From Thermus brockianus (lineage in GTDB: Bacteria; Deinococcota; Deinococci; Deinococcales; Thermaceae): 64,000 bases of DNA. This document shows positions 5,799 through 50,111 of the stretch, piece by piece. The stretch is from positions 124,001 to 188,000 of the forward strand of contig NZ_CP016312.1 in NCBI RefSeq assembly GCF_001880325.1. Direction: 5' to 3'. A model generated the notes under the pieces. That model had not been told where the DNA came from. It saw nothing but the letters and a program-made list of their open reading frames with translations, and did not search any database. Both the position numbers and the translations under genes were made by a program. Positions within the stretch are counted from its first letter, which is position 1, and each line of letters starts with the position of its first letter.

Positions 5799-6482
5799 CT
5801 AGCGCACCTCCTCCCCCACGATGCGCCCGTCCTCCAGGCGCACCACCCGGCGCACGTGCTCTAGCAGCCTGGGGTCGTGGGTGGAAAAGAGAAAGGTGAC
5901 CCCCTGGACCTCGTTCAGGGCCTTCATCCGCTCAATGAGGGCGAGGCCCGTCCGGGAGTCCAGGTTGGCGGTGGGCTCGTCCGCCAAGACGATGACGGGC
6001 TCGGCCGCCAAGGCCCGCGCCACCGCCACCCGTTGCTGCTCCCCGCCGGAAAGCTGCCGGGGGAAGCGGTGGGCCTTGTCCTTTAGGCCGAGGGCCGCCA
6101 GGGCTTCCAAAGCCCTCTTCTCCCGCTCGCCCTTGGGGACTCCACGGAGCTCCAAGACAAAGGCGGCGTTCTCCAAGGCGGTGAGGACGGGCAGCAAGTT
6201 GTAGGCTTGAAAGACGAGGCCGATGCGTTCCAGGCGGAAACGGGCCCGGGCGGAGCGGCCCAAGCGGTCCAGGCGCACCCCGCCCACATAGACCTCCCCT
6301 TCCGTGGGCAGGTCCAGGCCCGCCAGGATGTGGAGGAGGGTGCTCTTGCCGCTCCCCGAGGGCCCCACCAAGGCGGTGAACTCCCCCTTTTCCACCGCCA
6401 GGCTCACCCCCCGCAGGGCCTCGGTTTCCACCCCATCCCCCCGGTACACCTTCCGCACTCCCTTGGCTTCCACGATGGCCAT
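5799..6482 (-). CDS. ABC transporter ATP-binding protein (LolD/MacB type)
   Basis: This cytoplasmic ATPase of 227 residues powers the two FtsX-type permeases in the same operon. Walker [10 protein letters not shown] is near residue 40, the Q-loop is in [18 protein letters not shown], the signature is [15 protein letters not shown], and Walker B is [13 protein letters not shown]. The FQ.YNLLP and TALEN features are typical of the LolD/MacB/FtsE class, which extrudes lipoproteins, peptides or drugs or controls envelope enzymes. The cargo is not evident. It starts 9 nt after the permease gene. Confidence 0.9.
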
Positions 6483-34564: not shown

Positions 34565-34574
34565 GGCCTCTATG

Positions 34575-35699
34575 CTACTCCAGCGACGTCTGAACAAGGG
34601 ATGAACCCCCCGCCAAAAGCTCCTCATAGGTAGCCCAAACCTGGCTAAGCATCCTCTCTAGCGTAAAGTGGGTTTCATACCTCCTCCGTCCCTCGCTGCC
34701 TAGGGCCACCCTCAAATGGGGGTCCTGGAGCAATAGGGCGAGGCGTTCCCTTAAAAGGCCCTCGTCGCCCCGGGGTACCAGGTAACCCGTCCTGCCCTCT
34801 AACACTGCTTCCCTTACCCCCCCTACGTCGCTCGCCACCACGGGAAGCCCCGCCCGCATGGCTTCCAGCACCGAAAGGGGCAGGCCCTCCCAGTTGGAGG
34901 CCAGGACAAAAACCTGCGCGTCAGCCAAGATCCGGTCCACATCCAGCCGCTTCCCGAGGAAACGCACCCGCTCCCCCAGGCCCAAGCGCTCCGCCAGGGC
35001 CCGGACCTCGGGCAAAAGAGACCCCTGGCCCACCAGGTCTAAGCGCCAAGGTAGCGCTCGCAGTCCTGCAAGGGCTCTCAGCAAAAGGGCGTGATCTTTT
35101 GGAGGCGCAAACCGCCCCACCATGACGATCCGGGGCGGATACCGCCCGGGACTGGCCCGCAATGGGGTATCCGGAACCCCGTTCCACACTACCCGTATCC
35201 TTTCCGGGGGAACCACCCGGTAGCGTAGGGCAAGCTCCCGGTCCCTTTCGGAAACGGCAAGGACGAGGTCACCTACCCGGCCAGCCAAACGTTCTAGGGT
35301 AAGCGCCAAAGCCCTCCGTGCAGGGCTTACCCCATCCGTGAACGCCCACCCGTGGGCTGTAAAAACGCTCCTCACCCCCAGGCTCCTCGCCGCAAGCCGG
35401 CCTAGGAAGCCCGCCTTGGAAGAGTGGGCGTGGACCAGATCGGGGCGCAATCTCCTGATGAGGTCCCTTACCTCCCTGAGTCCCCGCAGATCCGACGCAG
35501 GCCTGATGGGTTGCACCATGTGAGCGAACAAGTGGGTTTCCACCCCAAGCTCCCGGGCAGCTTTCACCAGGAAATCCTCTTCGTCCTGCCCCACGGCCAG
35601 GTGTAGCTCAGCCCTGTCCCGGAAGGCCCTCAGGAGCTCCAGAAGATGCATCTGGGCCCCCCCTGGCTCGGCTCGGGTGATCAGATAAAGCACACGCAT
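34575..35699 (-). CDS. GT4-family glycosyltransferase
   Basis: The 374-residue cytoplasmic GT-B enzyme adds a sugar during repeat-unit assembly. It shows the N-terminal YLITRAEPGGAQMHLLELL, the HAHSSKAGFLGRLAAR segment, and the donor-site motif SNWEGLPLSVLEAMRAGLPVVASDVGGVREAV. The ATG at 35699 begins the canonical N-terminus, so the first 92 nt overlap the end of the polymerase gene in another frame. Confidence 0.9.
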   Translation of the reverse strand: MRVLYLITRAEPGGAQMHLLELLRAFRDRAELHLAVGQDEEDFLVKAARELGVETHLFAHMVQPIRPASDLRGLREVRDLIRRLRPDLVHAHSSKAGFLGRLAARSLGVRSVFTAHGWAFTDGVSPARRALALTLERLAGRVGDLVLAVSERDRELALRYRVVPPERIRVVWNGVPDTPLRASPGRYPPRIVMVGRFAPPKDHALLLRALAGLRALPWRLDLVGQGSLLPEVRALAERLGLGERVRFLGKRLDVDRILADAQVFVLASNWEGLPLSVLEAMRAGLPVVASDVGGVREAVLEGRTGYLVPRGDEGLLRERLALLLQDPHLRVALGSEGRRRYETHFTLERMLSQVWATYEELLAGGSSLVQTSLE

Positions 35700-36816
35700 A
35701 CCCCGACCATGCTAAGCCAAGCATGATCCACATATGCCGCCAATGGAGCGTATCGATGACGAAGCTTTCTGCGAGAATACCGGCGAGGCTCGCGAATATG
35801 ATCTCGTGCAATAAACTGCCCTGCTTGAGTCCACACCTCAGTGCATAAGCCATGCTAAGGCCTACAAAAGCAAGCCAGAAGCAAAGGCTGACCCAACCGG
35901 TTTCAAAGGCTAAGCGCACATAGGAGTTGTGGGTGGCATACTCCAAAAAGTACTCGGCCGATCCCGGCCCCTTCCCTATGGGGTCCTCCCAGGACGCAAC
36001 TAGGGCCTCCACCTGCTTGCTGAACCTATCGCGGTCATAGGGCTGGAAACCCAAGCGCGAGGAGAAAGTGTCGCCTAGCAGGAGTGTTGCATAAAGAAAA
36101 GTTGCTATAAACAACGAAAACATCAGCAGTGTCAAAGGGCATCTGGCCTTTGGACGCAAAAATGTCCATGCCACCAGCGCAACGAGGAAGTTAACCCAAG
36201 CCCCCCTTGAGAGAGATAACAGCAAAGCGGCTAGGAGTAGCAAAAAGCCAAGCAACCAAAGTGGCTTGCGCCTGGAGCTTTCGGCAAGCGAAAAGAGCAA
36301 TGCTGGTACTAAAAAAGCTCCAAAAACGTTAGGGTCCTTAAACAAACCCACCAACCTTGACCCACCCCAAAGTAATGACTCGAGGCCCGGCATGCCGAGA
36401 AAGGCGAAGATACCTAAAAGAGAAAACAATAAGGCACCCACAAAATAACCTGCAAGAAAATAATAAATAGAAACCTTTTCCTTTAACCCCATGAATACAA
36501 CCGAAATCAAACTCACATAAAAGGTGACAAGCATATAAAACACCATCCTATCCCATGGCACCACTTCATCAAAATCCCTACCTAAGGCCAAAAACAAAGA
36601 AAGCAATTGACTTAACATGAAAAGGCCAATTAAAACAAGGGCTAAAACATGTCCCGGACTCCAAGAAAAGTATCTATATCCCAACAATATCGCTATGGGC
36701 AGAACCAAATCAAAAAACGATGGCTCCCAACGAACAACAGATAAGGAAAGCCCCAAAATAAGAGACGCAAGGAGCTTCATTTTGAAATCCACTTTTTGTT
36801 CCAAAGATTGCCACAT
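35608..36816 (-). CDS. O-antigen polymerase/ligase-type membrane protein (Wzy-like)
   Basis: The 402-residue protein has ten or more hydrophobic helices and a large loop before the last helices that contains the THNSYVRLAFETGWVSL motif of the Wzy/WaaL family (Wzy_C). With a Wzx flippase and Wzz in the same cluster it is most likely the repeat-unit polymerase. GC is clearly lower than in flanking genes, with A/T-rich codons, suggesting transfer. Its 3' end overlaps the next gene by 92 nt. Confidence 0.8.
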   Translation of the reverse strand: MWQSLEQKVDFKMKLLASLILGLSLSVVRWEPSFFDLVLPIAILLGYRYFSWSPGHVLALVLIGLFMLSQLLSLFLALGRDFDEVVPWDRMVFYMLVTFYVSLISVVFMGLKEKVSIYYFLAGYFVGALLFSLLGIFAFLGMPGLESLLWGGSRLVGLFKDPNVFGAFLVPALLFSLAESSRRKPLWLLGFLLLLAALLLSLSRGAWVNFLVALVAWTFLRPKARCPLTLLMFSLFIATFLYATLLLGDTFSSRLGFQPYDRDRFSKQVEALVASWEDPIGKGPGSAEYFLEYATHNSYVRLAFETGWVSLCFWLAFVGLSMAYALRCGLKQGSLLHEIIFASLAGILAESFVIDTLHWRHMWIMLGLAWSGYACALSDHPSRARGGPDASSGAPEGLPGQG

Positions 36817-36949
36817 CTATTCCTCCAACCTACTCCCCCAAAGATAAAGCAACCAAGAAAAACAAGCTCTGGAGCACCCCAGCAGGTTCATTATAAGTGA
36901 CTTCCCCCTGAGCCATAAAGAACGAGCCCCAAACTCCCTCCAGCGCCAT

Positions 36950-37130
36950 TCTCGCCCCCGCCACCTCCCTCAGCAACCCAACCACCACGCCACTCGCGGA
37001 ACAGGCCCACCAGGGCTACAGTCCCAGGGGGCGCATCAACCTCCACGGCTACAAGCTGCACCTTTTGGTGGACGACGGTTCCTCAGAGCACGCGGAGCAC
37101 TCACCCCTGGGAGTGTGCACGGTCGTATAA
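36950..37130 (+). mobile_element. Transposase fragment (DDE type, remnant)
   Basis: In one plus-strand frame the translation contains QGYSPRGRINLHGYKLHLLVDDG, resembling the central region of IS4/IS5-type DDE transposases, and then stops. No start codon, full domain or terminal repeats are visible. The family assignment is tentative. Confidence 0.45.
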
Positions 37131-37336
37131 AAAGTGCCACTTCCTCCTCAAATCTCCACCCCCACCCTCCTGAGAAGCATCCAACTTCATACGAAGTTGT
37201 GCACCAGGTAAATGAGGTTCACCCGCGCCACCAACCCTCACCCACGCCCGCACCTCTATCCAGTGAAACCCAAGCGAAGGCCTAAACCCACTAAGCTGCA
37301 CCTCCATCCCTTCCTCGCCCACCCCACACATCCCTC

Positions 37337-37848
37337 TCACCCCCTCTCCTCCCCACTCCTCCTACGCAAACCGGTAATGCAGCGTCTTGACCCCCTACAC
37401 CCACCGAAACCCTCGGTTCCGCAGCACAGCAGGCAAGCCTTCCAAGGGTTCCTCGCTCCTATTCGCCAAATGTTCCCTGGTACAAGGGCGAAGCGTAAGG
37501 GAAGTCCCCGCTCGTTCCTCACCGCCACCGGGACATGACCCGCGGTCAGGCAGCAGCGTAGCTTGCAAGCCCCAAGAGGACCTACCCTGATAGCGACATG
37601 CCTTGCCCTTGGATCGGGCCCAAAGGCCAAATTCAGTGGGAGAAGAAGAGGGCGAGGCATTCGGCGAAAGTAGCTATTGGGGTCTTGGACGTTTGCAACC
37701 TTGGGCTTGGAGCGCTTTGAGGGTGTCACTTCCCCAGGCGTAAATGGACACCAAAAAGATTGCAGAGTCAAGAGGGTAAGGACGGTACCCACGGTCAAGC
37801 TTCATGGCACCCCCTCTTCTTGCGCATCTGCGCCTAGAAATCTGGGCA
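37337..37848 (-). mobile_element. Degenerate insertion-sequence remnant A
   Basis: The minus strand encodes MKLDRGYRPYPLDSAIFLVSIYAW, then a frameshift, then a second frame with GLPLRFALVPGN, a phrase typical of transposases. The 37690-37843 part matches remnant B at 39951-40100 with many mismatches and one indel; both share CGCCTAGAAAT at the 5' side. It is no longer able to code for an intact transposase. Confidence 0.6.
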
Positions 37849-37905
37849 ATCGCTAAGGAATAGCATAAACTGCTGGTCCCTAACACACCAGTCTAGACGA
37901 ATAGG

Positions 37906-38742
37906 CTAGTAAAAGCAGGATCCGCTTCGCCATTTGCGTTGCACCCAACTGAGCAGGTACCTCCGGGAAAACTTCGCCAATGACCACGCCGCAAGGATAG
38001 GGAACGCCGCCCAAGGTATCATCTTCTCACGAGCTAACAACATATACGTGTCTAACTCCCCCAGTTCCATCTTCCAAAGGTTAGCTGAAAGACCTGCCCA
38101 TCCCCAAGGAGGTTTTAGCCCGAACGCTAGGCCTTCTTTGAAATAATATGGCGTAAATCCGCTTAGCGCTATTCGGAGCCAGAGTGCGTAATCCTCTGCA
38201 TACCTCTTCTCTGGAAAACGGAAGGATAAGCATCTTCGCAAAACAACAGTTGGGGTTGCAATGAAATTGCGCCACAATAGAGAATACGGCGAAAGAGCTT
38301 TAGGTTCAGAAAAGCTTCTGGGGAGAAAAGTCCCTCCTTTCAGACAGGGCACATAGGCATGTGCCGTAAAAGCAACTGAAGGGTGAGTTGTCATCCAACC
38401 AACCTGTCGCTCCACCTTTTCAGGATGCCACATGTCGTCCGCATCTAGAAAAGCCACATACTCTTCACTAGCTTGCTCCCAACCCCTGTTCCTTGCAGCC
38501 CCCGGCCCCCGGTTTTCAGAAAGAATCACAAAGCGAATATTTAGAGAACTGCTTTGTACGACTCGCCGTACGGCATCTTCGAGCAGAGCAACTGCTTCTG
38601 CAGGATTGCCGTCACTCACAATGATAACTTCTGCTGGAAGCCACGTTTGTAAAGCCACTGACTCCAAAGCCCTCTCCAATGTCCCCTCACATCTGTAGCA
38701 AGGAATAATCACACTTACAGGTGCTCTTCCACTCCGCCTCAT
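37906..38742 (-). CDS. GT2-family glycosyltransferase
   Basis: The 278-residue GT-A enzyme shows VSVIIPCYRCEGTLERALESVALQT at the N-terminus, GPGAARNRGWEQASEEYVAFLDADDMWHPEK with the metal-binding DAD, and a C-terminal AEDYALWLRIAL segment. It should add a sugar to the lipid-linked repeat unit. A hydrophobic stretch near residue 243 may touch the membrane. GC is low compared with the core genome. Its ATG overlaps the stop of the next GT2 gene. Confidence 0.88.
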   Translation of the reverse strand: MRRSGRAPVSVIIPCYRCEGTLERALESVALQTWLPAEVIIVSDGNPAEAVALLEDAVRRVVQSSSLNIRFVILSENRGPGAARNRGWEQASEEYVAFLDADDMWHPEKVERQVGWMTTHPSVAFTAHAYVPCLKGGTFLPRSFSEPKALSPYSLLWRNFIATPTVVLRRCLSFRFPEKRYAEDYALWLRIALSGFTPYYFKEGLAFGLKPPWGWAGLSANLWKMELGELDTYMLLAREKMIPWAAFPILAAWSLAKFSRRYLLSWVQRKWRSGSCFY

Positions 38743-39647
38743 ATACGCCTTTTCCCTCTCACCAACCCTGTAAAGCCCTCGATAGTACCCTTAAGAGCTT
38801 CCCAGCGCCAGGTTGTTTCCTCCCACTTCCCCATCAACATATAGAACAACAAAGCCACACCCCGACGAGCCATAATCCACACAAACTTCATCCATGCTCC
38901 GTGCTTTCTAAGAACATACCCGTTACCCCTTCCATACCTCCTAGCTTTTTCAGCCCCTGGTAATTTGTTCGGATGTGCCACACTCAAAGTCGGCTCATAC
39001 CACACCGAAAACCCGGCCTTTAAAACCCTCAGTCCAAAGTCCGTATCCTCCCCAGCGCCCCAAGGCGTCTCAGAACCAACCCCCAAATGCTCGTCAAAGA
39101 ACACCTTCTCAGTAACGCGGCGCAAGGCAAACAAAACCCAACTTATGGAAAGATGCCACATCTGCCATGGAGAAACCTTTCCCGGCGTTTTCCGCTGCAA
39201 GGGGAAATCCCGGCCTCCTAAATCTGTTGCCCTCACAATCAAAAGGTCTATGTCCGATCTCTTTTCCAAAAAGTCACTTATCTTACTCAGAAAATATGGA
39301 TCGTTATACACACAATCATCATCTGGAAAGGCAACGATCTCTCCTTTTGCATAACGAAGTCCAAAATTACGAGCTCTAGAAAGCCCCTTCCAGCGAACCT
39401 TGAGGTGTCGAACTGGGAAAGAAAAACTAAACCGGCTCAAAACTTCCTTAATCCTTTCATCTGGATTCTGATCTATCAAAATCACTTCAAAGTTTCGATA
39501 TGTTTGGGCTTCTAAAGACAGTAGAAATTTTTCCAATTCCACCGTTCGGTCTACTGTGGCTAAAACCAGCGAAAACCTGATCTTTCTACCCTCCAAGGCG
39601 AGTTTGCTATCCGACACCACATCAGCCCCACGCCTACTCACACTCAC
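38739..39647 (-). CDS. GT2-family glycosyltransferase
   Basis: The ~302-residue GT-A enzyme has FSLVLATVDRTVELEKFLLSLEAQT, SRARNFGLRYAKGEIVAFPDDDCVY with the DDD metal site, and GAGEDTDFGLRVLKAG. The start is uncertain: GTG at 39647 or 39643 follows GGTGGAGGT, while an upstream TTG at 39668 is also in frame. It is low in GC and, with its neighbour, is bracketed by insertion-sequence remnants A and B. Confidence 0.85.
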   Translation of the reverse strand: MSVSRRGADVVSDSKLALEGRKIRFSLVLATVDRTVELEKFLLSLEAQTYRNFEVILIDQNPDERIKEVLSRFSFSFPVRHLKVRWKGLSRARNFGLRYAKGEIVAFPDDDCVYNDPYFLSKISDFLEKRSDIDLLIVRATDLGGRDFPLQRKTPGKVSPWQMWHLSISWVLFALRRVTEKVFFDEHLGVGSETPWGAGEDTDFGLRVLKAGFSVWYEPTLSVAHPNKLPGAEKARRYGRGNGYVLRKHGAWMKFVWIMARRGVALLFYMLMGKWEETTWRWEALKGTIEGFTGLVRGKRRI

Positions 39648-39886
39648 ACCTCCACCCTTGCCAGCCAAGTTATACCCAGCGCATTATAACGCGACGTGGT
39701 ATAGACGCCCCTGATGCCTATGCCAGACTTGCCGATTCTTCCGGATACACTCCAGGAACCTAGGGTAAAAGGCAACACCATGTCCCCCATACCACCCTCT
39801 CATGCTCTTACGCGCCGCACCTGGTCCCATCCTCACGCAAAAGCACACGCCACCCCAGAAGGAAGCGTTCTGAAGCGTTCTGTTGT

Positions 39887-39910
39887 ATCCCCCTTTTGGC
39901 AAAGGGGGAT
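39887..39910. repeat. Perfect 10-bp stem hairpin
   Basis: ATCCCCCTTT (39887-39896) and AAAGGGGGAT (39901-39910) pair around TGGC. No T-tract follows on either strand, so it may be an element end rather than a terminator. Confidence 0.5.
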
Positions 39911-39950
39911 TAAGCCCTACGGTTACCTAGCTGCGACGCGCGTGGGATTG

Positions 39951-40100
39951 ATGCAGCCTTGGACTCGGAGGGCTTCGAGGGTATCGCCTACCCAGGCGTA
40001 AATCGATACCAAAAGGGCTGCAGAGTCTAGAGGGTAAAGGAAGTGCTAACGGTCAAGCTTCACTTGACCCCCTACTTTGCGCATTTACGCCTAGAAATAA
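39951..40100 (-). mobile_element. Degenerate insertion-sequence remnant B
   Basis: The minus strand encodes VKLDR, a stop, then YPLDSAALLVSIYAWVGDTLEALRVQGC, clearly homologous to remnant A (YPLDSAIFLVSIYAWGSDTLKALQAQGC). CCAGGCGTAAAT and CGGTCAAGCTTCA are shared with the same spacing. Only the N-terminal part of the transposase remains. Confidence 0.65.
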
Positions 40101-40192
40101 AGCAAGGGGCACATTAGTTAAGAGAATCCTTCTCGTTCACGTACCACTTTCGATAGCCCTTTCACGCGGAACCAGTTCCCCCTAAGTCCGAA

Positions 40193-41074
40193 CTAGGCGG
40201 CCCTAGCCCAGAGGACAAGACCCCTCGAATCCCAGCGGCGTATCACGGGGTAGTTCACTGTCCCCACCTCCTGGGCCCAAGGCACCGGCCTCCCTTCCAA
40301 CCGGAAGCGCAGGGAGCGGTAGGGCAAGGGGCCATGCGCGTACCCGAAGAACTCGTCTATAGGCCCCGTGTAGATGAGGTACCGGTACCGCACCTCCCCC
40401 TCCACCTCCCGCCAGTCCGCCCCCAGGAGCACCTTGATGTTGGGGTGCCGGAGCATCCGCCGGAAAAGGGCCGTGTACCCCTCCTTGGGCATAGCTTGGT
40501 AGGCGTCCTGGAAGTAGCGGGTATCGTAGCTCACAAGAACAGGCACCCGCGCCGTCACGGAAGGGGAAAGCTCCTCGGGGCGCATTCCCCACTGCTTCAG
40601 GGTGTACCCCTCAAAGACGTTTTTGTACACGTAGTCCGCCAGGAAGCGAAGGTCAGGGTCGTCCTCCTGTTTGAGCCGAAGGATGGGCACCCGGGCCCCG
40701 TAGCCAAAGCGCCCTATGAGTTTCTCCTCCAGGCGGTCCGCTACCCGATTGGAGAAGAGGGCTCGCAGGGAGGCCAGGCTAAAGGGCAGGGGAATCTCCT
40801 TCCCCTCCACCACCGCCCGCACCCGGTGGAAGTAGGGGCGCCACTCGGTGAAGCGGGAGAGGTATTCAAACACCTTCCGGCTCTCCGTGTGGAAGATATG
40901 GGGACCGTAGCGGTGGACCAAAACCCCCCGCTCGTCCATCTCATCGTAGGCGTTCCCCCCGATGTGGTCCCGCCTCTCCACCACCAGGACCCGCTTCCCC
41001 AGCTCCGAGGCGATCCGCTCCGCCAAGGTGGCCCCGGTGAAACCCGCGCCCACGATGAGGTAGTCCGCTTTCAC
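40193..41074 (-). pseudogene. glf: UDP-galactopyranose mutase, 3'-truncated
   Basis: Glf converts UDP-galactopyranose to UDP-galactofuranose using FAD. The first ~275 residues look intact: FAD motif DYLIVGAGFTGATLAERIA, GGNAYDEMDERGVLVHRYGPHIFHT, VFEGYTLKQWG and YTGPIDEFFGY. After VGTVNYP, where other Glf proteins continue about 70-90 residues with a TRITEFK-type motif, this sequence diverges and stops at 293 residues. The lost part carries conserved substrate-site residues, so activity is doubtful. The break lies about 90 nt from IS remnant B. The GTG start overlaps the flippase stop. Confidence 0.75.
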
Positions 41075-42342
41075 CGAGCTACCTCCCATGGAAGACGTCG
41101 CCGCACGTGTAAGTACCACAACATGCTTCCTGTGACCAAAGCCTCCACCAAGACCACCGCCCACGCAAGCCCCTGGGGGCCCCAGAGATAGCTAAATACA
41201 CTCGCCGAGGCCAGGTTCACCAACCCAGCCCCTACAATAATAGCGTGGAAGGCCCGGTCCATCCCCCAAGCCAACATCCACTGGATTCCCAGAAGGTTGG
41301 ATAGGGCAATAAGAGGAAGCAAGAAGACCAAGGTGCGCATAAGCGGGACCGCCCCCTCATAACCTGGGCCCAAAAGGAGGCGGACCACCCATGGGGCAAG
41401 AAGGCCAAGCAGCAAGGCGCCCCCCATTCCTATTCCCCCCATAAGAAGGAAAACCCGGCTGGCCAAACGCCCCGCTTCCTTGGGATCCTCCCTAACCCCA
41501 TGGGCAAAGCGGGGGAAAAAAACCCGGCTAAAAGGATCCACCATGGCTAAAAAGGCCTTAGTAATTCGCTCCGCTCCCCCGTAAAGACCCACCTGGGCCG
41601 GAGGAGCAAAAAAGCTCAGGATTAAAGGATTCGCCGCTGTATACAGGCTAACAGCCAAGCGAAAAAAGAAGAGGCCAAAACCCAAACGGAGGAAACGCCA
41701 ACCATCCCCTAAGTTTGGTAAACGGATGGGGAAATCTCTCTTCAACCAAAAGGTACCCATAATCGTCGCCACTAAGGCCCCCGCCCCGTTCAGAAAAAGG
41801 GGCCAGTGGACCTGCTCCGGCGAACGCACCCACACAAGCACACCTGCCGTAGCCAAGGCCCGGGTAAGCACCTCTAAGAGAGCCACCTCCCGCATCCTCT
41901 CCAACCCCTGGAAAAACCACACCGGGCTAAATCCCCAAGCCACCGCCCAAAAGAAAGCGGCTAAAACCACCTCCTCCTTACCCTTCAGGCTTGGAAGCCC
42001 TTGGACCAGTAGGGCCAAAGACAATGCGGGGACCGCTAAGAGGGCCTTCGCACCTAAAACCCCGGCGAAGATGTGGGCGAGGGCTTCCCTGTCCTCTCGA
42101 TGGCGGGCTACCTCACGCGTCCCGGAAAGGGTAAACCCATACTCCACCACGAGCTGCAGGTAAACCGCCAAGGACTGCCCCAGCGCTAAAACGCCAAACC
42201 CCTCCGGCCCAAGGACTCGGGCTAGGTAAGGGAGAGTAACCAGGGGAAACAAATAGTTGGCTCCTTGAGCCAGGTAAAGGTAAAGGAGGTTCCGTCCCGT
42301 GCGGGAACCTAGCAACGCAACAAGGCGGCGCACATGGCGCAA
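41071..42342 (-). CDS. Wzx-type polysaccharide flippase
   Basis: The 423-residue membrane protein has about twelve helices and belongs to the PST/MOP family that moves lipid-linked repeat units across the inner membrane. The N-terminal NLLYLYLAQGANYLFPLVTLPYLARVLGPEGFG is highly typical. TTG at 42342 or GTG at 42333 may be the start, directly after the stop of the epimerase fragment. GC is intermediate. Confidence 0.88.
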   Translation of the reverse strand: MRHVRRLVALLGSRTGRNLLYLYLAQGANYLFPLVTLPYLARVLGPEGFGVLALGQSLAVYLQLVVEYGFTLSGTREVARHREDREALAHIFAGVLGAKALLAVPALSLALLVQGLPSLKGKEEVVLAAFFWAVAWGFSPVWFFQGLERMREVALLEVLTRALATAGVLVWVRSPEQVHWPLFLNGAGALVATIMGTFWLKRDFPIRLPNLGDGWRFLRLGFGLFFFRLAVSLYTAANPLILSFFAPPAQVGLYGGAERITKAFLAMVDPFSRVFFPRFAHGVREDPKEAGRLASRVFLLMGGIGMGGALLLGLLAPWVVRLLLGPGYEGAVPLMRTLVFLLPLIALSNLLGIQWMLAWGMDRAFHAIIVGAGLVNLASASVFSYLWGPQGLAWAVVLVEALVTGSMLWYLHVRRRLPWEVAR

Positions 42343-42343
42343 G

Positions 42344-42922
42344 CTAACGATCGCCCATCACCTCCCTAAAGTACGCAATGGTCCGCATCAAGCCCTCTCG
42401 CACCGGAACCCGCGGCTCCCACCCCAGGAGGCGCCTCGCCAAGGAGATGTCCGGCCGGCGTTGCTTGGGGTCGTCCTCCGGCAGGGGGCGGAAGACAATG
42501 GGAGAAGGGCTTCCCGTAAGCTCCTTTACCAACTGGGCGAGCTCCAGAACCCGGTACTCCTCCGGGTTCCCCAGGTTCACCGGGTAGGGGTAGTCCACCT
42601 CCATAAGGCGCCGGATTCCCTCTATTAGGTCGTCCACGTAGCAGAAGGACCGGGTCTGGCTCCCGTCGCCAAACACCGTGAGGGGCTCCCCTCTGAGGGC
42701 TTGAACGATGAAGGCGGACACCACCCGCCCGTCCTTCGGGTCCATGCAGAGGCCGTAGGTGTTCTGGCAGAAAACCCCGTTGCCCGCCACAAAGTTCTCG
42801 CCCCCCGGCACAGAGAAATCACAGACTGTGGCCATTGCCAAATAAGGCTGCACCTCCTCTACCCGACTCCAAACGATATCCTCTCCTAGCCTTGCAGTTC
42901 TTAAAAAGAATCTGCGCTCACA
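42344..42922 (-). pseudogene. Intein C-terminus fused to the C-terminal half of a UDP-glucuronate decarboxylase-like epimerase
   Basis: The downstream part (from [26 protein letters not shown] to the end, ~144 residues) is the C-terminal half of a UXS-type extended [21 protein letters not shown] is conserved. The N-terminal Rossmann half is absent. Directly upstream, in frame, the sequence reads [14 protein letters not shown], then [14 protein letters not shown] and GNGVFCQN, which match intein blocks F and G with the terminal Asn and a Thr +1 residue; the penultimate His is Gln. The junction lies exactly where other UXS proteins have IFN-TYG. The frame stays open to a TAG at 42923-42925. Only a GTG (42853) offers a start, so this is most likely a relic; a split-intein C-half cannot be excluded. 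Confidence 0.8.
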
Positions 42923-43043: not shown

Positions 43044-43529
43044 ATGCGAAGAGTTTGGCTAAGCTTCTTCATACTCCTCCTCCCCTTGGCCCGCGCCCAA
43101 GAGTGGCGGCTCACCCGGAGCCAAAGCCTCACCCAGGAGGGCGCCACAGCCTGGCGGTACACCCTAAGCCCCGTGGGCAAAGAAGCCAGGGAACTCTGGC
43201 AAAGGCTCGCCCTCCAGTACCAGGACCACCTGCGGGCCGGGTACCGAGTAGACCTGGGAAGCTGGCGGCTCTACTTCCTTGGGGGGAGGCTCAGACTAGA
43301 GCCCCACTGCCCAAAGGTAAACCCCGCCTGCCTCACCTTCGGCGCCTTGCCCGTGGAGAAGACGGTACAAGACCGCTTCCTCCTAGAGCTAAGCGGCCTC
43401 CTGGACCAGGCCCTGGCCCAGGCCCGGGCCACGAGGGGCACCCTCACCCTCTCCCAGCTTTTCCGGGTAGAGGTCAAGCGAGGCCAGACCCCACCCTACC
43501 CGGCAAGGCCCTCGGGCTGGGCCCCCTAG
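43044..43529 (+). CDS. Secreted protein of unknown function, copy 2 (direct repeat)
   Basis: The 161-residue protein has a signal peptide (MRRVWLSFFILLLPLARA) followed by a mature domain almost identical to the 31922-32407 product. Differences include S/G, G/R and G/Q changes near the C-terminus. It lies 18 nt before the LptD-like gene in the same direction, so this is probably the original location and the partner in function. No known family recognised. Confidence 0.7.
   Translation: MRRVWLSFFILLLPLARAQEWRLTRSQSLTQEGATAWRYTLSPVGKEARELWQRLALQYQDHLRAGYRVDLGSWRLYFLGGRLRLEPHCPKVNPACLTFGALPVEKTVQDRFLLELSGLLDQALAQARATRGTLTLSQLFRVEVKRGQTPPYPARPSGWAP
43104..43520 (+). repeat. Right copy of the 417-bp direct repeat flanking the island
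   Basis: It matches 31982-32398 without gaps. The distance between copies is about 11.1 kb, and the DNA between is the polysaccharide cluster. Confidence 0.9.
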
Positions 43530-43547: not shown

Positions 43548-45170
43548 ATGAGGCGCCTACTCCCCCTCTTAGCCCTTTGGGGAAGCTTGGCCTTGGCGGG
43601 CCCTTGCGCCCAAAGGCCCTACACCTTGGAAACGGAAGAGGGACTACTGGGCGGAGAAGAACTCACCTACGATGGGGAAGAGCTCGTTTTTGAGGGACGC
43701 GCTTGTCTAGAACGGGAAGGCCTTCTCCTCGAGGCCCCCCTCATCCGCTACCGCGAGGAGGCCAGGGCCTTTTTCGCCGAGGGGCTCACCGGGGAGGCCG
43801 AGGGGTGGCGCCTCCAGGCGGAGCGCCTCGAGGGCAAGGCCCTAAAGGGCGTTAGGCTTGCGCGGGGGAAGCTTCGGGCGGAAGCGGAAAGCGTCCTCCT
43901 GGAAACCCCCCCCTTGGGCCAAGGGATCCTCCTAGAGTCCCCCGCCTACCGGGTAAAGGCGGAAGAGGCCCGCTTCGGCCAAAAGGAAGCCCTCCTCAGA
44001 GGGTTCTTGGCCACGCCCTGCCCCTGCGGGGAGGACGTGCGCCTTTCCATGGAGGAGGCGCGGTTTGACGTGGCCACCGGGGAGCTCGTGGGGGAAGCGA
44101 GCCTGGGCCTCTGGGCGCTGGACATCCCCCTGGGCGAGGCCCGGGCAAACGCCAACCGCAGACCCCCCTTGGAAAGCCCCCTGGTCCTGGGGAGCACCGC
44201 AGACGGGGGGTGGAGCGTAGGGGTTAAGGGCTTCCCCCTCCCCAGGCCTGGGGAGGAAATCGGCCGCTGGGAGCGGCGCTTCACCCTCCTGGCCACGGGC
44301 CTTGGGACCGAAAAGGCGGCCCTTCTCGTGGGCTACCGGGAGGGAAACCGGGGCATGGAGGCCCAGCTGGGCTACGCCCCCGGGGTGAGGGCCTTCTTTG
44401 ACGACCTCTTCTTCGCCGCAAGCCCCAAGCCCCCCGATGCCGACACCCCCCGCCTCGAGGTCCGCTACCGCCCCACCTTCCGCCTGGAAGGCCTGACCCT
44501 GAACCCCCTTCTCCGCTACGCGGAAACGGGTAGGAGCCAAGGCTGGACCTTGGGGCTCGAGGCCGCCTACCGGGCCACCCTGGAGGAAGGTCCCTTCCGC
44601 TTAACCTTTACGCCCTCCCTCCTCGCTACCCTCTACCCTGGGAGCGCCTACGCGCCCTACCTGGCCCTAGGCGGAAGCGTGGAAGGAAGCTTCCGGGAAG
44701 GGGAGCTTTCCCTAAGGGCAGGGTACGCCGGGAGGCTAGAACCCTTGGGCCAGACCCCACCCTTCACCTACGAGAACCGGGACGAATTCCAGCGGTTTTT
44801 CCTGGAGGGAACCTATGGCCCCTTGGGCCTCGGCTACACCCTGGAAAACCCCCTGGGGGACCGGCTGGAGCGCCTGGAAGGGCGCTTCCAAGACCCAAAC
44901 CTAGGAGGCTTCCGGGTAGCCTACGTGCGGGGGAGCCTGGAGGAGGTCCGCCTCGCCTACGCCATGCCCCTCCCCGACCGGACCTGCTGCCAGGCCCTGT
45001 GGCTTGCCCCAGAGGTAGGCTTGGGCGGCGGGGAACTCACCCGCTATGGCCTCACCCTCCGCCTCTACGATGGCTGCATGGCCTACGAGCTTCGGGCGCA
45101 AAACGTCCTTAAGGGGCAGTACAGCGAAACCACAGGGTGGAGCCTCACCTTCGGCCTTTCCCTGCGCTAG
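43548..45170 (+). CDS. LptD/OstA-like outer-membrane protein
   Basis: The 540-residue protein has a signal peptide, an OstA-like beta-jellyroll region (residues ~20-190, with repeats such as GLLLEAPLIRYREEARAFFAEG and a LLRGFLATPCPCGEDVRL segment with two Cys) and a C-terminal beta-barrel region ending in an aliphatic/Arg tail (LTFGLSLR). This layout resembles LptD, which inserts lipopolysaccharide in other bacteria. Length is shorter than the ~780 residues of E. coli LptD. The cargo in a Thermus-type envelope is not known. Confidence 0.7.
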   Translation: MRRLLPLLALWGSLALAGPCAQRPYTLETEEGLLGGEELTYDGEELVFEGRACLEREGLLLEAPLIRYREEARAFFAEGLTGEAEGWRLQAERLEGKALKGVRLARGKLRAEAESVLLETPPLGQGILLESPAYRVKAEEARFGQKEALLRGFLATPCPCGEDVRLSMEEARFDVATGELVGEASLGLWALDIPLGEARANANRRPPLESPLVLGSTADGGWSVGVKGFPLPRPGEEIGRWERRFTLLATGLGTEKAALLVGYREGNRGMEAQLGYAPGVRAFFDDLFFAASPKPPDADTPRLEVRYRPTFRLEGLTLNPLLRYAETGRSQGWTLGLEAAYRATLEEGPFRLTFTPSLLATLYPGSAYAPYLALGGSVEGSFREGELSLRAGYAGRLEPLGQTPPFTYENRDEFQRFFLEGTYGPLGLGYTLENPLGDRLERLEGRFQDPNLGGFRVAYVRGSLEEVRLAYAMPLPDRTCCQALWLAPEVGLGGGELTRYGLTLRLYDGCMAYELRAQNVLKGQYSETTGWSLTFGLSLR

Positions 45171-45325
45171 GATGGCCCTATACCGGGAGGAGACCCAGAC
45201 ACCTGGCCGGGCGCCCAAAGAAGCTGGAGGGGCGCATTCCAGGGCAGGAAGGGGCCTTCCACAAGGCCATGCTGGTCTTTCCCGCCATAGGGGTGGTCTT
45301 GGCCCTTATTAGCCTCCTGCGCTAG
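45137..45325 (+). CDS. Possible small membrane protein
   Basis: The frame ends with RPKKLEGRIPGQEGAFHKAM followed by a hydrophobic helix (LVFPAIGVVLALISLLR). Third codon positions are G/C-rich as in real genes. The start is unresolved: the GTG at 45137 lies inside the LptD-like gene, and GGGAGGAG near 45185 suggests a later non-standard start. It may be a tail-anchored protein of about 40-50 residues. Confidence 0.35.
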   Translation: MEPHLRPFPALGWPYTGRRPRHLAGRPKKLEGRIPGQEGAFHKAMLVFPAIGVVLALISLLR

Positions 45326-45328
45326 GCC

Positions 45329-45739
45329 CTAGGGCTCTACCCGTAGCCTCCGCAAGAAAAGGTTCCGGTCCTCAGGGGGGAGGTACAGGTCGTCGGTGAA
45401 GGCCACAACCACCATCCCCTCGCCCGAGGTGCGGAACCTGAGCTCCCGAAGGCCCAGCACCTCCCCCTCAAAGAGGAGGCGGCTTCCCTCCGCCACCAAA
45501 ACGTGCGGGCCCTTGCCCCGGGCGGGGGTACCCTCCAGGAGGAGGACCAAGGTGGCCCTGCGGCAAAGGGGGATCTCCACCACCCCGTTCGTCCAAAGCT
45601 CCGCCCGCTCGGGCACGGAGCCCGGCTGGCAAGAAACAGCCTTACCCCCTAGCGGCCGTAAGGTAAAAGCTTCCTTTAGGCCCGCCACCCCTAGCCCCAG
45701 GGCACCCAAGAGGAGGCCAAGAAACCAAGCCCCCCTCAC
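45329..45739 (-). CDS. Membrane-anchored hypothetical protein paired with the ligase
   Basis: The 136-residue protein has one N-terminal helix (AWFLGLLLGALGLGVAGL) and an exported beta-rich domain with phrases such as WTNGVVEIPL and GLRELRFRTSGEGMVVVAFTDDLYLPPEDRNLFLRRL, reminiscent of jelly-roll carbohydrate-binding domains. The GTG overlaps the stop of the O-antigen-ligase-type gene (GTGA), so they are coupled. I infer a role in polysaccharide handling at the outer face of the membrane. Confidence 0.6.
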   Translation of the reverse strand: MRGAWFLGLLLGALGLGVAGLKEAFTLRPLGGKAVSCQPGSVPERAELWTNGVVEIPLCRRATLVLLLEGTPARGKGPHVLVAEGSRLLFEGEVLGLRELRFRTSGEGMVVVAFTDDLYLPPEDRNLFLRRLRVEP

Positions 45740-47169
45740 CGCTCCACCTCCCTTTCCAGGACATAAAGGGGCTTCTGCACGGAACGCGAAGGGGCAAAGA
45801 GCAAGACCCGTAGGCGGTAGCGCCCGGGAGGAAGATCCCCAGGAAGGCTAAAGGCGATGGGTTTAGACCCATCCCACTCCCAACCCACACGGCGGCAGGC
45901 CTTGGCGCAGAGCCACACCTGGACCCGGTACCCCTCGCCCCCCTGAAGGCGCACCACCCCGCCCTCTTGCCCCAAGGCGGCGTAGGCCAATCCGGGGGGT
46001 GGAGGGGCAGGGCTTAGGGCAAGCTGCCAAAAGGGAAGGGCCCAAAGGAGAATGACCCCCGTGGCCAAGGCCATGAGGCGGTTTAACGGAATCCAACCCC
46101 GGGCCAGGGCCATCCCCCCAGCCAAAAAGAAAATCTCCCCGCGGAAGGGGCTCGGGACGCTGAAGGGGTTGTCCACCATGCCCATGGCGGCGTAGGCCAG
46201 GAGGAGGGAAAAGAGAAGCCCATCCCCCCAGGCCGCCGCCAAAAAACCACCTACCAACAAGGCAAGTCCCAAAGCGCCCCAAAGCCCGCTTTCCCCTAGG
46301 GCTTGGAGAAGATGGTTGTGGGCGAACTGCCAAAATCCCCCAAGAGGCCCAAGCCAAGCGGGGCAGGTCAGGCCGCGCGCTTCCACAAGGGAAAAGAGAA
46401 AGCAGTCCCCAAAGAGCGTTCCCTTCAGGTGGTCCCCAAGAAGGTAGGGCCCCACCCCGGTCCAGGGGTGGGCAGCGTAGACCTCGTACGCCCTAAGCCA
46501 AAGCCCTTCCCGCCCGGAAAGCTGGGTCTGGAAAAAGCGTTCGGTAACCGGGGTGTCCAGGAAGCCCGCAACCCCCAGGAGAAGCCCCGAAAGCCCTAGG
46601 GCCCAAAACCCCCGCCGGCGGAAGAGAAGCCCCCCCGCCCCGCCCAGGAGAAACCCTAGCATCCCCCCCCGGCTCCCGGAAAGGAGGAGGACCGCTCCCC
46701 CAAGGAGCCCAAGGAGAAGGCGAAAGGGCCATGGGTAGCGGAGGTAAAGGGCCAGGAAGACGCCCACCGCCCCCATGAGGCCAAGCCCCACGGGGTTGTG
46801 AAAGGGGTGGGCCAGGCGCTCCCCCACCGCCCTGTCCCCATAGACCAGGTAGGTGGCGAAAAAGGCGGACAGGTAAAGGAAGGCTAGGCCATACCCCAGG
46901 GGCGCTAACGCCTCCGGGGAAAGGCGCCTAGCCAAGACCACCCCCGCCCCCACGAGGCCGAGGACGTAAAGCACCCGGAAGAGGGCCAAGGGCAAGGCCA
47001 GGGACTCGGGGGCGAACAGGGCAGGCACGAGGAGGGAGAAGGCGTAGAACCCCAAGAGGCCCAGAACCGGGCGGGGAAGCCCCCGAAGCCCGGGCAGGAA
47101 GAGGGGGGCAAGCCACCCCAGGAAGGGGAAAAGGGGCGCAAGAGCCAGGCCCAAGGCGAGAAGGCGCAC
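45736..47169 (-). CDS. O-antigen ligase-type membrane protein (WaaL family)
   Basis: The 477-residue protein has about eleven helices and the Wzy_C/WaaL hallmarks: SGSRGGMLGFLLG and the large loop with HPWTGVGPYLLGD and FAHNHLLQALGESGL, where a His is catalytic in ligases. The C-terminal ~110 residues form an extra beta-rich extracytoplasmic domain that resembles the small protein encoded next. GTG starts it 7 nt after TAAAGT. It may attach polysaccharide to a lipid or protein anchor. Confidence 0.8.
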   Translation of the reverse strand: MRLLALGLALAPLFPFLGWLAPLFLPGLRGLPRPVLGLLGFYAFSLLVPALFAPESLALPLALFRVLYVLGLVGAGVVLARRLSPEALAPLGYGLAFLYLSAFFATYLVYGDRAVGERLAHPFHNPVGLGLMGAVGVFLALYLRYPWPFRLLLGLLGGAVLLLSGSRGGMLGFLLGGAGGLLFRRRGFWALGLSGLLLGVAGFLDTPVTERFFQTQLSGREGLWLRAYEVYAAHPWTGVGPYLLGDHLKGTLFGDCFLFSLVEARGLTCPAWLGPLGGFWQFAHNHLLQALGESGLWGALGLALLVGGFLAAAWGDGLLFSLLLAYAAMGMVDNPFSVPSPFRGEIFFLAGGMALARGWIPLNRLMALATGVILLWALPFWQLALSPAPPPPGLAYAALGQEGGVVRLQGGEGYRVQVWLCAKACRRVGWEWDGSKPIAFSLPGDLPPGRYRLRVLLFAPSRSVQKPLYVLEREVER

Positions 47170-47176
47170 GGGCTAA

Positions 47177-47226
47177 ACTTTACCAAAAGGCGCGTTAACG
47201 CGGGGCTAAGGGAAATGGGGTAAAGT
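47177..47226. promoter_or_regulatory. Divergent promoters with a central 12-bp palindrome
   Basis: TAAAGT occurs on the minus strand (47182-47177), 7 nt before the ligase GTG, and on the plus strand (47221-47226), 7 nt before the LptA/C-like ATG. Between them lies the perfect palindrome CGCGTTAACGCG (47191-47202), a good operator candidate. Confidence 0.55.
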
Positions 47227-47233
47227 GCCTTCC

Positions 47234-47854
47234 ATGAAGAGGCTATTGCCCCTTCTCTTCCTAGGGGTAGCCCTGGCTGCCCGCTTCGCCACCTTCAGCG
47301 TGGAACCCTTTGGCCCCCAACGGGTGAACCTGGACACGGGGGTCACCACCCTTCCCCAAGGGGGCGTCCTGGTGGACAACGAAAACGGGCTCCGCTTGAA
47401 GGGGAGCTACATTGAGTACAAGGAGGGAAGCTTCGTGCGGGCGAAAGGGGTAGAGCTCCTCTCCGGAAAGGAAACCTTCGTCGCCCAGAGCCTGGAGCAC
47501 GATATTCCCAAACAGGAAGCCCGCTTCCAAGGGCTTACCTTCAGCAACGCCGATTTCAAGGGGCTAAAGGCGGAAAGGGCTTTGGCCCTTTTCGGCGAGG
47601 ACGTGGTGGTGCTCAAGGGCAAGGTGCAGGCGGAAAGCCCCAGGCTTCAGGCGGAGACCCTGGTGGTAGACCTTCAGGGAAGGGAGGCCTTGGCCCTGGG
47701 AAGCTTCACCTACCAAGAGGGCAAAGCCACCCTGAAAGGGCAAGGGGCTTCCGCCCGGCTCCACCTTCGCTTCCAGGGCGGGAAGGTCGTGGCTTCCACC
47801 AAGGTGCCCCAGGGGGCCTTGCCCCTCGCCGCCTACGCTAGCCGCCTCCCATGA
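47234..47854 (+). CDS. LptA/LptC-like periplasmic bridge protein
   Basis: The 206-residue protein has a signal peptide (MKRLLPLLFLGVALA) and OstA-type beta repeats (GLRLKGSYIEYKEGSFVRAKGVELLSG; VVLKGKVQAESPRLQAETLVVDLQGREALALG). It probably binds a lipid or polysaccharide between membranes. The stop overlaps the start of the LptF/G-like permease (ATGA). A GTG 9 nt upstream is in frame, but TAAAGT with a 7-nt gap supports ATG 47234. Confidence 0.75.
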   Translation: MKRLLPLLFLGVALAARFATFSVEPFGPQRVNLDTGVTTLPQGGVLVDNENGLRLKGSYIEYKEGSFVRAKGVELLSGKETFVAQSLEHDIPKQEARFQGLTFSNADFKGLKAERALALFGEDVVVLKGKVQAESPRLQAETLVVDLQGREALALGSFTYQEGKATLKGQGASARLHLRFQGGKVVASTKVPQGALPLAAYASRLP

Positions 47855-48957
47855 CCCTCTACCGCTACGTCCTTCGGGAAAGCCTCCCCGTCCTCCTCCT
47901 GGCCCTGGCCTTCCTCACCACCGTCTACCTTTTTGGGTTCTTCTACGCCGGGGCCCGGTGGTTGGAGGGGGTACCCCTTGTTAAGGTGCTCCGCTGGCTT
48001 TCCTACCACGTGCCCGGGGTCTTGGTACAGGTCTTCCCCATCGCCACGGTGGTGACCACGGTGCTCGTCTTCGGGCGGCTTTCGGCGGAAGGGGCCCAGT
48101 TTGCCCTCCTTTCCGGGGGGATACCCCTTTACCGGGCCGCCTTACCCCTTCTCGCCGTGGGCGGGGTGCTCTCGGGGGTGGCCCTGTACCTCCAGGAGTA
48201 CGTGGTACCCCACTACAACGAACGGGTGCGGGTGGCCTGGTGGGACGAGATCCATACCCAAGGGGCTGGTCTTCACCGGCTCGTGGGGCTCCAAATCCCC
48301 ATCGGCCAAGGGAAAAGCCTCTATTTTTCCGGATTTGACTGGGAGAGGAAGGAGATGCTGGGGGTAAGGATCTCCGCCTTCCAGGGGGATGAGGGTACCT
48401 TCCTCTTTGCCGAGCGGGGCCGGTGGGAGGATAAGGTCATCACCCTGGAGAACTACCGCTACTACCGGGTGGACTTCAAGGAGGTGCCGGGCCTCGAGGG
48501 GGCGAAGGACCTCCTCGGCCAGGTGCGCCGGGTCTTCAAGGTGGTGAGCCAAGGCCCCCTCGTGGAGGTGGAGTCGGACCTGTCCCGCGCCCGGGCCATC
48601 GCCGACTACGCCGACACCTTTAGCTTCGGCCAGGATAGCCTCTCCGAGGCCTGGCGGAAGGCCAAAGACCCCTTCCTGGCCCCCCTGGAACGCTTCCGGG
48701 CCCGGCTGGAGTTCCACTCCAAGTTGGCCCTGCCCCTCGCCAACCTGGTCCTGGTCCTCCTGGCGGCGGCCATGGCCCTCCGCTATGGCCGGAGCACGGG
48801 GCTCGCCTTGGGGATGAGCGTGGTCCTGGCCCTGGCCTACTACGGGGCCTTCTTCCTGGGGCGCTCCCTGGCCGGCATCGGGGCCTTGCCCCCGGAGCTT
48901 GGGGCCTGGGGGGCCAACCTCCTCTTCCTCGGCCTGGGAGCCAGGGCCCTGCGCTAG
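47851..48957 (+). CDS. LptF/LptG-family permease
   Basis: The 368-residue membrane protein has three N-terminal helices, a periplasmic jellyroll domain (residues ~125-265) and three C-terminal helices, the YjgP/YjgQ layout. The start TLYRYVLRESLPVLLLALAFLTTVYLFGFF and KVLRWLSYHVPGVLVQVFPIATVVTTVLVFGRL are diagnostic. It extracts lipid-type cargo with an LptB ATPase, which is not in the window. Only one such permease is encoded here. Confidence 0.88.
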   Translation: MTLYRYVLRESLPVLLLALAFLTTVYLFGFFYAGARWLEGVPLVKVLRWLSYHVPGVLVQVFPIATVVTTVLVFGRLSAEGAQFALLSGGIPLYRAALPLLAVGGVLSGVALYLQEYVVPHYNERVRVAWWDEIHTQGAGLHRLVGLQIPIGQGKSLYFSGFDWERKEMLGVRISAFQGDEGTFLFAERGRWEDKVITLENYRYYRVDFKEVPGLEGAKDLLGQVRRVFKVVSQGPLVEVESDLSRARAIADYADTFSFGQDSLSEAWRKAKDPFLAPLERFRARLEFHSKLALPLANLVLVLLAAAMALRYGRSTGLALGMSVVLALAYYGAFFLGRSLAGIGALPPELGAWGANLLFLGLGARALR

Positions 48958-49013: not shown

Positions 49014-50111
49014 GTGAGGCCCCTAAGGCTTGGCCTCGTGGCCTACCCGGGCCTAGGGGGAAGCGGCATCGTGGCCACGGAGCTCGCCCACCGCCTGGCC
49101 CAGATGGGACACGAGGTCTTCCTCTTCGCCACGGAACGCCCTTTCCGCCTGCCCAAGGAAAGCCCCGTCCGCTTCGTCCCCGTGGACCTCCCCTTCTACC
49201 CCGTCTTCCCTGGGCCCCTGTACACCCTGTCCCTGGCCGGGACCCTGGAGCGGGAAGCGGGGCGCCTGGGCCTAGAACTCATCCACACCCACTACGCCAT
49301 CCCCCACGCCGCCGCCAGCTACCTGGCCTTCGGCGAGGGCTTCCCCCTGGTCCACACCCTCCACGGCACGGACGTTTCCGTCCTGGGCATGGACCCCGCC
49401 TTCCACGGGCCCACCCGAAGGGCCCTGAAGAATGCCCGGGCCACCACGGCGGTGAGCCAGGCTTTGGCGCTGGAGGCGGAGAGGGCTTTTGGGGTTAGGC
49501 CCACGGTGATCCCCAACGCCGTGGACCCGGAGCGCTTCCACCCAAGGCCGGAGCGGAAAAGCCTTTACGCCGAGGAAGGGGAGTGGCTTTTGGTGCACGC
49601 CTCCAACTTCCGGCCCATCAAGCGGGTGCCGGATATCGTGCGGGCCTTTGCCAAGGTGCGCCAAAAGGTGCGGGCCCGCCTCCTCCTCCTGGGAAAAGGC
49701 CCCGAGGAAGCGGAGGCCCGGCGGGTGGCGCGGGAGCTTGGGGTGGAGGCCTGGGTCACCTTCCACCCCCCCACGCCCCACCCGGAGGAGGTTCTGGGGG
49801 CGGCGGACCTCTTCCTCCTGGCCTCGGAGGAGGAGTCCTTCGGCCAGGCGGCCCTCGAGGCCCTGGCCTGTGGCGTGCCCGTGGTGGCCACGGCGGTGGG
49901 GGGGGTGCCGGAGCTGGTCCGCCCGGAGGTGGGGCGGCTCGTGGAGCTCGGGGACCTGGAGGGCTTCGCCGAGGCGGTCTTGGAACTCCTCGCCCACCCC
50001 GAGCTCCCCAAGATGCGGCAGCGGGCCCGGGCCTACGCCCAAGAGCACTTCCACCCGGAGCGCATCACCCGGCAGTACCTGGAGGTGTACGCGAAGGCCC
50101 TGGGGGGCTAG
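49014..50111 (+). CDS. bshA: N-acetyl-alpha-D-glucosaminyl L-malate synthase (bacillithiol synthesis)
   Basis: The 365-residue GT4 enzyme joins N-acetylglucosamine to L-malate, the first step of bacillithiol synthesis. The BshA signature YPGLGGSGIVATELAHRLA is at the N-terminus, followed by HTHYAIPHAAASYLA, HGTDVSVLG and the donor-site EESFGQAALEALACGVPVVATAVGG. GTG follows a GGAGGAGGG site by about 8 nt. It is convergent with lon, 9 nt apart. Confidence 0.92.
   Translation: MRPLRLGLVAYPGLGGSGIVATELAHRLAQMGHEVFLFATERPFRLPKESPVRFVPVDLPFYPVFPGPLYTLSLAGTLEREAGRLGLELIHTHYAIPHAAASYLAFGEGFPLVHTLHGTDVSVLGMDPAFHGPTRRALKNARATTAVSQALALEAERAFGVRPTVIPNAVDPERFHPRPERKSLYAEEGEWLLVHASNFRPIKRVPDIVRAFAKVRQKVRARLLLLGKGPEEAEARRVARELGVEAWVTFHPPTPHPEEVLGAADLFLLASEEESFGQAALEALACGVPVVATAVGGVPELVRPEVGRLVELGDLEGFAEAVLELLAHPELPKMRQRARAYAQEHFHPERITRQYLEVYAKALGG

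Follow-up and report, generated by a model that had tools for sequence, protein, structure and literature searches.

A second Lpt-type transport locus accompanied by a Wzy_C enzyme in Thermus, a genus without LpxC and LpxB

Lpt-type genes of the locus

We analyzed a 64,000-nucleotide stretch of the Thermus brockianus genome (NZ_CP016312.1, positions 124,001 to 188,000 of the forward strand; hereafter, the window), in which an earlier note had described a group of genes resembling those for Lpt transport to the outer membrane. Three forward-strand genes encode what is, with good support, an Lpt-type bridge: an LptD-type outer-membrane protein of 540 aa with a signal peptide, an N-terminal jellyroll and a C-terminal beta barrel (43548-45170), an LptA/LptC-type periplasmic jellyroll protein of 209 aa (47225-47854), and an LptF/LptG-type permease of 368 aa (47851-48957). 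The stop of lptA overlaps the start of the permease gene (47854 versus 47851), and the true start of lptA may be an ATG three codons downstream. In Thermus the locus is split between lptD and lptA by two genes on the opposite strand, one for a Wzy_C-family membrane enzyme of the O-antigen ligase or polymerase type (45736-47169, reverse strand; PF04932) and one for an exported protein of 136 aa, which overlaps the end of the former gene (45329-45739, reverse strand). The lptD, lptA and permease genes are genuine: relatives conserve them, and they are under purifying selection. Values of dN/dS for LptF, LptA, LptD and Wzy_C were 0.03-0.24 in comparisons with T. brockianus, T. composti and T. scotoductus.

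The permease assignment of the earlier note was confirmed by a full-length PF03739 match (E 4e-59, 200.8 bits), and the permease profile also matched solved LptF and LptG structures. The protein stayed under the equivalog cut-offs for both LptF (TIGR04407, 91.7 bits versus 230) and LptG (TIGR04408, 105.1 versus 240). Neither the LptD-type nor the LptA/LptC-type protein matched any Pfam or NCBIfam family, and a whole-genome PF03968 search did not detect the window LptD; the 824-aa LptD of the standard set described below likewise had no Pfam or NCBIfam match. An hmmsearch with the LptD alignment against PDB sequences returned no match, and hhalign comparisons with E. coli LptD and with the standard Thermus LptD yielded no more than weak alignments around the Cys motif. 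Because these sequence methods gave nothing or little, the membership of both proteins in the LptD and LptA families rests on predicted structure.

AlphaFold (AF2) models were built from 15-16 orthologues. The LptD model (pLDDT 81.5, pTM 0.56) found LptD structures as its top 21 Foldseek matches in the PDB (E 1.6e-14, probability 1.0), and VIA-align of this predicted model against E. coli LptD covered residues 19-540 with a Z of 14.0. Since the barrel alone scored equally well against TonB-type barrels, the identification is carried by the whole-chain match together with the jellyroll. LptD is characterized by disulphides between its domains, formed by conserved cysteines of which one pair is near the C-terminus. 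In the window LptD, six cysteines (C20, C53, C158, C160, C480 and C510) are invariant across 15 relatives, and the Meiothermus LptD has a CC pair close to its C-terminus; the alignment to the Cys173 region of E. coli is weak, with a probability of just 1.7%. The model of the LptA/LptC-type protein (pLDDT 87.7, pTM 0.82) matched LptD-jellyroll, LptA, LptH and LptC chains (E 2e-5 to 5e-4, probability 1.0). This protein is 44-90% conserved among relatives, and a search for related loci with its alignment recovered Thermaceae only. On the predicted structures, 43548-45170 thus encodes an LptD with both jellyroll and barrel, and 47225-47854 an OstA-type periplasmic beta jellyroll; the jellyroll whose absence from the models the earlier note had named as a reason to abandon its proposal is present.

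A standard Lpt set elsewhere and the divergent permease of the window

The window set is not the sole Lpt set of the genome, a possibility that is ruled out by a complete standard set elsewhere. This set comprises an LptFG pair (C1:1293074-1295099) with an adjoining LptD, an LptC-sized protein, two LptA-like proteins with PF03968 matches, and the LptB-type ATPase that the earlier note had suggested looking for (C1:1592606-1593319; TIGR04406, 332 bits versus a cut-off of 240), which is the single one above the cut-off. The earlier idea of an Lpt-type bridge at the locus therefore stands, with the correction that this bridge is additional to a complete set. PF03739 permeases occur in 50/50 genomes of the family, nearly all of which have an LptFG pair plus a third permease. 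A 2022 survey reported lptD to be missing without exception from atypical diderms, Deinococcus-Thermus among them (PMC8871954); the LptD proteins of both Thermus sets, as identified from the models, contradict that statement. The standard LptD is intact in three relatives (822-826 aa). In T. brockianus, the reading frames of the standard lptG and lptD both appear to be broken by a frameshift close to short runs of G or C (C1:1286000-1302000, about 8980-9000 and 6290-6340); lptD of G029 has the same break at a C run, and it is intact in G048, G031 and G041. These frameshifts may represent sequencing error, slippage or true loss.

Three permease clades were found in the genome family, and the window permease belongs to the clade that we call F3b, whose members come from Thermus, from the genera g13 and g14 and from f2 genomes, all of them LpxC-less. 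The Thermus F3b proteins group with those of LpxC-less Oceanithermus-like genomes (g13, a name that is our guess from its position) with a support of 99/97, and monophyly of Thermaceae was rejected for the permease (p 6e-11). The window permease as a vertical orthologue of the Meiothermus permease is ruled out by this test. As the LptA and LptD trees showed either the Thermaceae pattern or no resolution, it seems from these sequence comparisons that the permease alone was exchanged or differentially retained. The g14 genomes have four LptF/G permeases each, with both F3 clades in one cell (L136, L137, L138, L150 and L153).

In the alignment, the F3b proteins of Thermus, g13 and g14 have an alanine at the position of E. 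coli LptF E84/LptG E88, in the LptB-coupling helix; in the window this is codon 82 (48094-48096). These glutamates have been described as strictly conserved, distant homologues included, and the double alanine mutant retained an ATPase activity of ~0.15% (PMC5082905). Glutamate was kept in all standard permeases that we checked and in all F3 proteins of LpxC-bearing genomes. It was also kept in the f2 genomes and in two f5 genomes, which are LpxC-less, and glutamate loss as a plain effect of LpxC loss is therefore not general. Ala82 at a conserved position, taken together with the absence of the set from five Thermus species, two of which retain remnants, could mean that the locus is a remnant of LPS (lipopolysaccharide) export in decay, disappearing from one species after another. 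We regard this as improbable, because the genes are under the purifying selection noted above, the permease is the best conserved gene of the set (97% to T. brockianus), and the changed helix is common to the whole clade, also outside Thermus; with such selection, the loss of the glutamate is not plain decay. A dimer of the F3b permease with a standard one would be comparable to the single mutants E84A and E88A, both viable, whereas an F3b permease paired with itself would need to be energized differently.

Lipid A genes, the Wzy_C enzyme and the polysaccharide island

LpxC and LpxB are absent from T. brockianus and from all 27 genomes of the genus (LpxA, LpxD, LpxK and KdtA were not searched genome-wide), and LpxC is also absent from G049; lipid A genes elsewhere, which the earlier note had held to be a possible objection, did not turn up. 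With the same profile, LpxC was found in 21 of the 22 genomes of the sister genera g2-g4, and LpxB was weakly recognizable in most g2 and g4 genomes. In a Meiothermus-type genome, one cluster contains an LpxD-like protein, LpxC, an oxidoreductase and an LpxB-like protein. The best solved relative of the oxidoreductase is 7bvj, which we take to be GnnA.

The relatives also preserve a compact form of the bridge locus. In Meiothermus, Calidithermus, g2 and g12, the genes form an operon lptA-lptD-lptF with ends that mostly overlap or almost touch, and the same order occurs in families f3, f4 and f5, that is, in four families of the order in all. In LpxC-bearing genera, the gene that comes next encodes a DegT sugar aminotransferase, for which Thermus has no close orthologue (73% or more). 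The GnnA-like protein in the lpx cluster suggests that the DegT gene is a gnnB for a lipid A with a 2,3-diamino sugar, its function in lipid A synthesis being probable, and the simplest reading is that lptA-lptD-lptF served LPS in the LpxC-bearing members. An ancestral LPS outer membrane in Deinococcus-Thermus that was later lost has already been proposed (PMC5007114). The LpxC-bearing relatives suggest LPS as the ancestral cargo of a bridge that the earlier note had discussed for Thermus, where the permease is not their vertical orthologue. A divergently oriented N-acetylmuramoyl-L-alanine amidase gene (PF01520) is conserved upstream of lptA-lptD-lptF in LpxC-bearing genera (L085:6655-7731 and kin).

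The bridge, Wzx/Wzy and ligase-type genes of Thermus are of the kinds found in LPS pathways, and LPS made by an unrecognized lipid A route could be carried by both bridges. This is very improbable, considering that LpxC and LpxB are missing genus-wide under a profile that detects LpxC in the sister genera, and that the DegT aminotransferase orthologue is missing as well.

The Wzy_C enzyme, which corresponds to the O-antigen-ligase-type gene of the earlier note and lies inside the interval of the locus, is barely above the PF04932 cut-off (32.5 bits versus 31.7). It was present in 22/22 near-complete Thermus-clade genomes with LptD and LptF and absent in 5/5 without full-length copies (n=27; G042, 65% complete, was left out of the count), and this joint pattern of retention and loss requires at least four changes on the LptFG tree. 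Wzy_C is absent from all LpxC-bearing genera. In four genomes (G038, G043, G046 and G048) lptD has moved away from the rest, and all parts are still kept. Thermus sp. 2.9 (G046) carries the window set twice; the LptD of the second copy is ~69% like that of the window.

These patterns bear on an alternative explanation, in which the window genes duplicate the work of the standard set, sending the same phosphoglycolipids or glycolipids to the outer membrane as an accessory copy, with the ligase beside them being incidental. The standard LptFG-LptD genes are found in every genome, including G041, which has no window set; the window set is dispensable; and the one LptB above the cut-off would serve both sets. 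However, Wzy_C is kept or lost with the set in 27/27 near-complete genomes, the window LptD barrel and permease have diverged far from the standard ones, and the coexistence of two LptD types across the families of the order speaks for distinct cargo. We consider an accessory copy rather unlikely.

The polysaccharide island that adjoins the locus (33332-42342, reverse strand) encodes an initiating sugar-phosphate transferase (Bac_transf, PF02397) with a family 4 glycosyltransferase (PF00534; 33332-35699), a second Wzy_C-type protein that is the probable island polymerase (35608-36816; PF04932, E 2.7e-6, below the cut-off), two family 2 glycosyltransferases (37906-39668; PF00535), a UDP-galactopyranose mutase for the galactofuranose precursor (40193-41164; TIGR00031, above the cut-off) and a Wzx-type flippase (41071-42342; PF01943). 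Members of the island vary strongly between species (the flippase is 31-63% identical or absent), whereas the bridge and Wzy_C are constant, as would be expected of an O-polysaccharide that varies while its ligase and exporter stay the same. Judged by its sequence and company, the enzyme at 45736-47169 would be the ligase.

Several neighboring genes complete the region. A gene for a 161-aa exported protein of no known family (43044-43529, forward strand) lies directly 5′ of lptD, as it does in several Thermus genomes, and also stands beside the lptD remnant of G037; from its position, this protein is a possible LptE-like partner of LptD. The 136-aa protein weakly resembles a carbohydrate-binding module, CBM60 (PF16841, E 0.033, below the cut-off) and is kept beside Wzy_C in Thermus. 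The interval 42344-42853 (reverse strand) encodes an intein C-terminal splicing signature (TIGR01443, above the cut-off) followed by the C-terminal part of an NDP-sugar epimerase/dehydratase; the remaining intein and the N-terminal half of the epimerase are absent from directly upstream. The gene at 49014-50111 (forward strand), considered as a surface or island glycosyltransferase, was ruled out as such, since it encodes BshA, the first enzyme of bacillithiol synthesis (TIGR03999, above the cut-off). It adjoins the permease gene and precedes lon, a position kept in several Thermus genomes.

Possible cargo and comparison with known systems

The predicted folds, the operon, the pattern of gene loss and retention, the permease clade, the lost glutamate and the absence of LpxC and LpxB were computed. 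From them we derive the explanation that we favor, and to which we give about an even chance, namely that an LPS bridge was re-purposed to export polysaccharide on a lipid other than lipid A. The locus would be a second, dedicated Lpt-type bridge descended from the lptA-lptD-lptF operon, which shows ties to lipid A synthesis in relatives with lipid A genes and there probably transported LPS. The Thermus line would then have lost the synthesis of lipid A and kept LptA and LptD, with the permease being a different paralogue, F3b, and the Wzy_C enzyme joining the locus. The sugar transferase, glycosyltransferases, Wzx and Wzy of the island would build a polysaccharide on undecaprenyl phosphate, and Wzy_C would transfer it to a membrane lipid other than lipid A. 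The F3b permease, presumably together with LptB and perhaps as a dimer with either of the two standard ones, would lift the product from the inner membrane, the LptA jellyroll would take it across the periplasm and the LptD barrel would place it in the outer leaflet. The earlier note had proposed a glycolipid or the island polysaccharide as cargo; the link to the island gains support from the retention and loss of Wzy_C with the bridge, and the cargo itself is what we infer from that link.

A bridge without LPS might instead move surface lipoproteins, as was reported for the LptD homologue of Borrelia burgdorferi, which was needed for lipoprotein flipping according to the summary of He et al. 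2023 in PMC13317210. Another study saw no such role and modeled glycolipids instead (PMC10353723), and the constant partners of the bridge in Thermus are glycan enzymes, so that we consider lipoproteins an improbable cargo.

Several points weigh against the export of a polysaccharide-bearing lipid. Five species manage without the set as a whole. Replacement of the coupling glutamate could mean that the permease is coupled to LptB weakly or not at all. Besides ligases, the Wzy_C family has polymerases and protein oligosaccharyltransferases among its members, and the GnnA/GnnB assignment is a tentative one based on family resemblance. Some of the co-losses may reflect block deletions of neighboring genes, yet the genes were kept together where lptD had moved away. 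It is probable that Thermus displays a sugar-lipid other than LPS on its surface. A more specific proposal is that Thermus makes an LPS-like molecule without lipid A, consisting of a Wzx/Wzy polysaccharide ligated by Wzy_C to another lipid, and exports it over a dedicated second Lpt bridge whose permease, from an LPS-less clade without the LptB-coupling glutamate, works with altered energy coupling or in a mixed dimer; this we advance tentatively, as a possibility that is on the whole less likely than not.

The cargo of Lpt machines in LPS-free diderms is a question that has so far been argued mainly in Borrelia. The same operon in LPS-gene-bearing and LPS-gene-less genera provides a natural before/after comparison across the order: as lipid A genes are lost, both the permease paralogue and the partner enzymes become different ones. 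Some Thermus strains are genetically tractable, so that both cargo and energy coupling are directly testable. Thermus is a clean system for finding which sugar-lipid reaches the surface without the LPS genes LpxC and LpxB.

The Thermus set resembles the Lpt machinery for LPS export (LptB2FG-LptC-LptA-LptDE) in its permease family, its jellyroll protein and its LptD fold, with an LptB in the genome. It differs in the absence of LpxC and LpxB, in the single permease gene at the locus with alanine for the coupling glutamate, in the length of LptD (540 aa) and in having neither LptE nor LptC at the locus (no LptE search was made). Like the Lpt system of Borrelia burgdorferi, for whose cargo both glycolipids and lipoproteins have been argued (PMC10353723; He et al. 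2023, as summarized), it is a bridge without LPS, but Thermus has two bridges, the second of which is linked to Wzy_C and to lipid A gene loss. The single-permease clusters of diderm Firmicutes (PMC5007114) similarly group one LptF/G homologue with OstA-type proteins; they occur with LPS synthesis genes and without a recognized LptD, whereas the Thermus set has an LptD and occurs without LpxC and LpxB. The Thermus enzyme shares with the WaaL/Wzy family the Wzy_C domain, many membrane segments and an adjoining Wzx/Wzy polysaccharide island; unlike that family it has no lipid A core acceptor and carries an extra C-terminal domain. In the literature searched, we did not find a second bridge combined with a glutamate-less permease from an LPS-less clade and a co-inherited Wzy_C. 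The component families are already known, and it is their combination that sets the Thermus locus apart.

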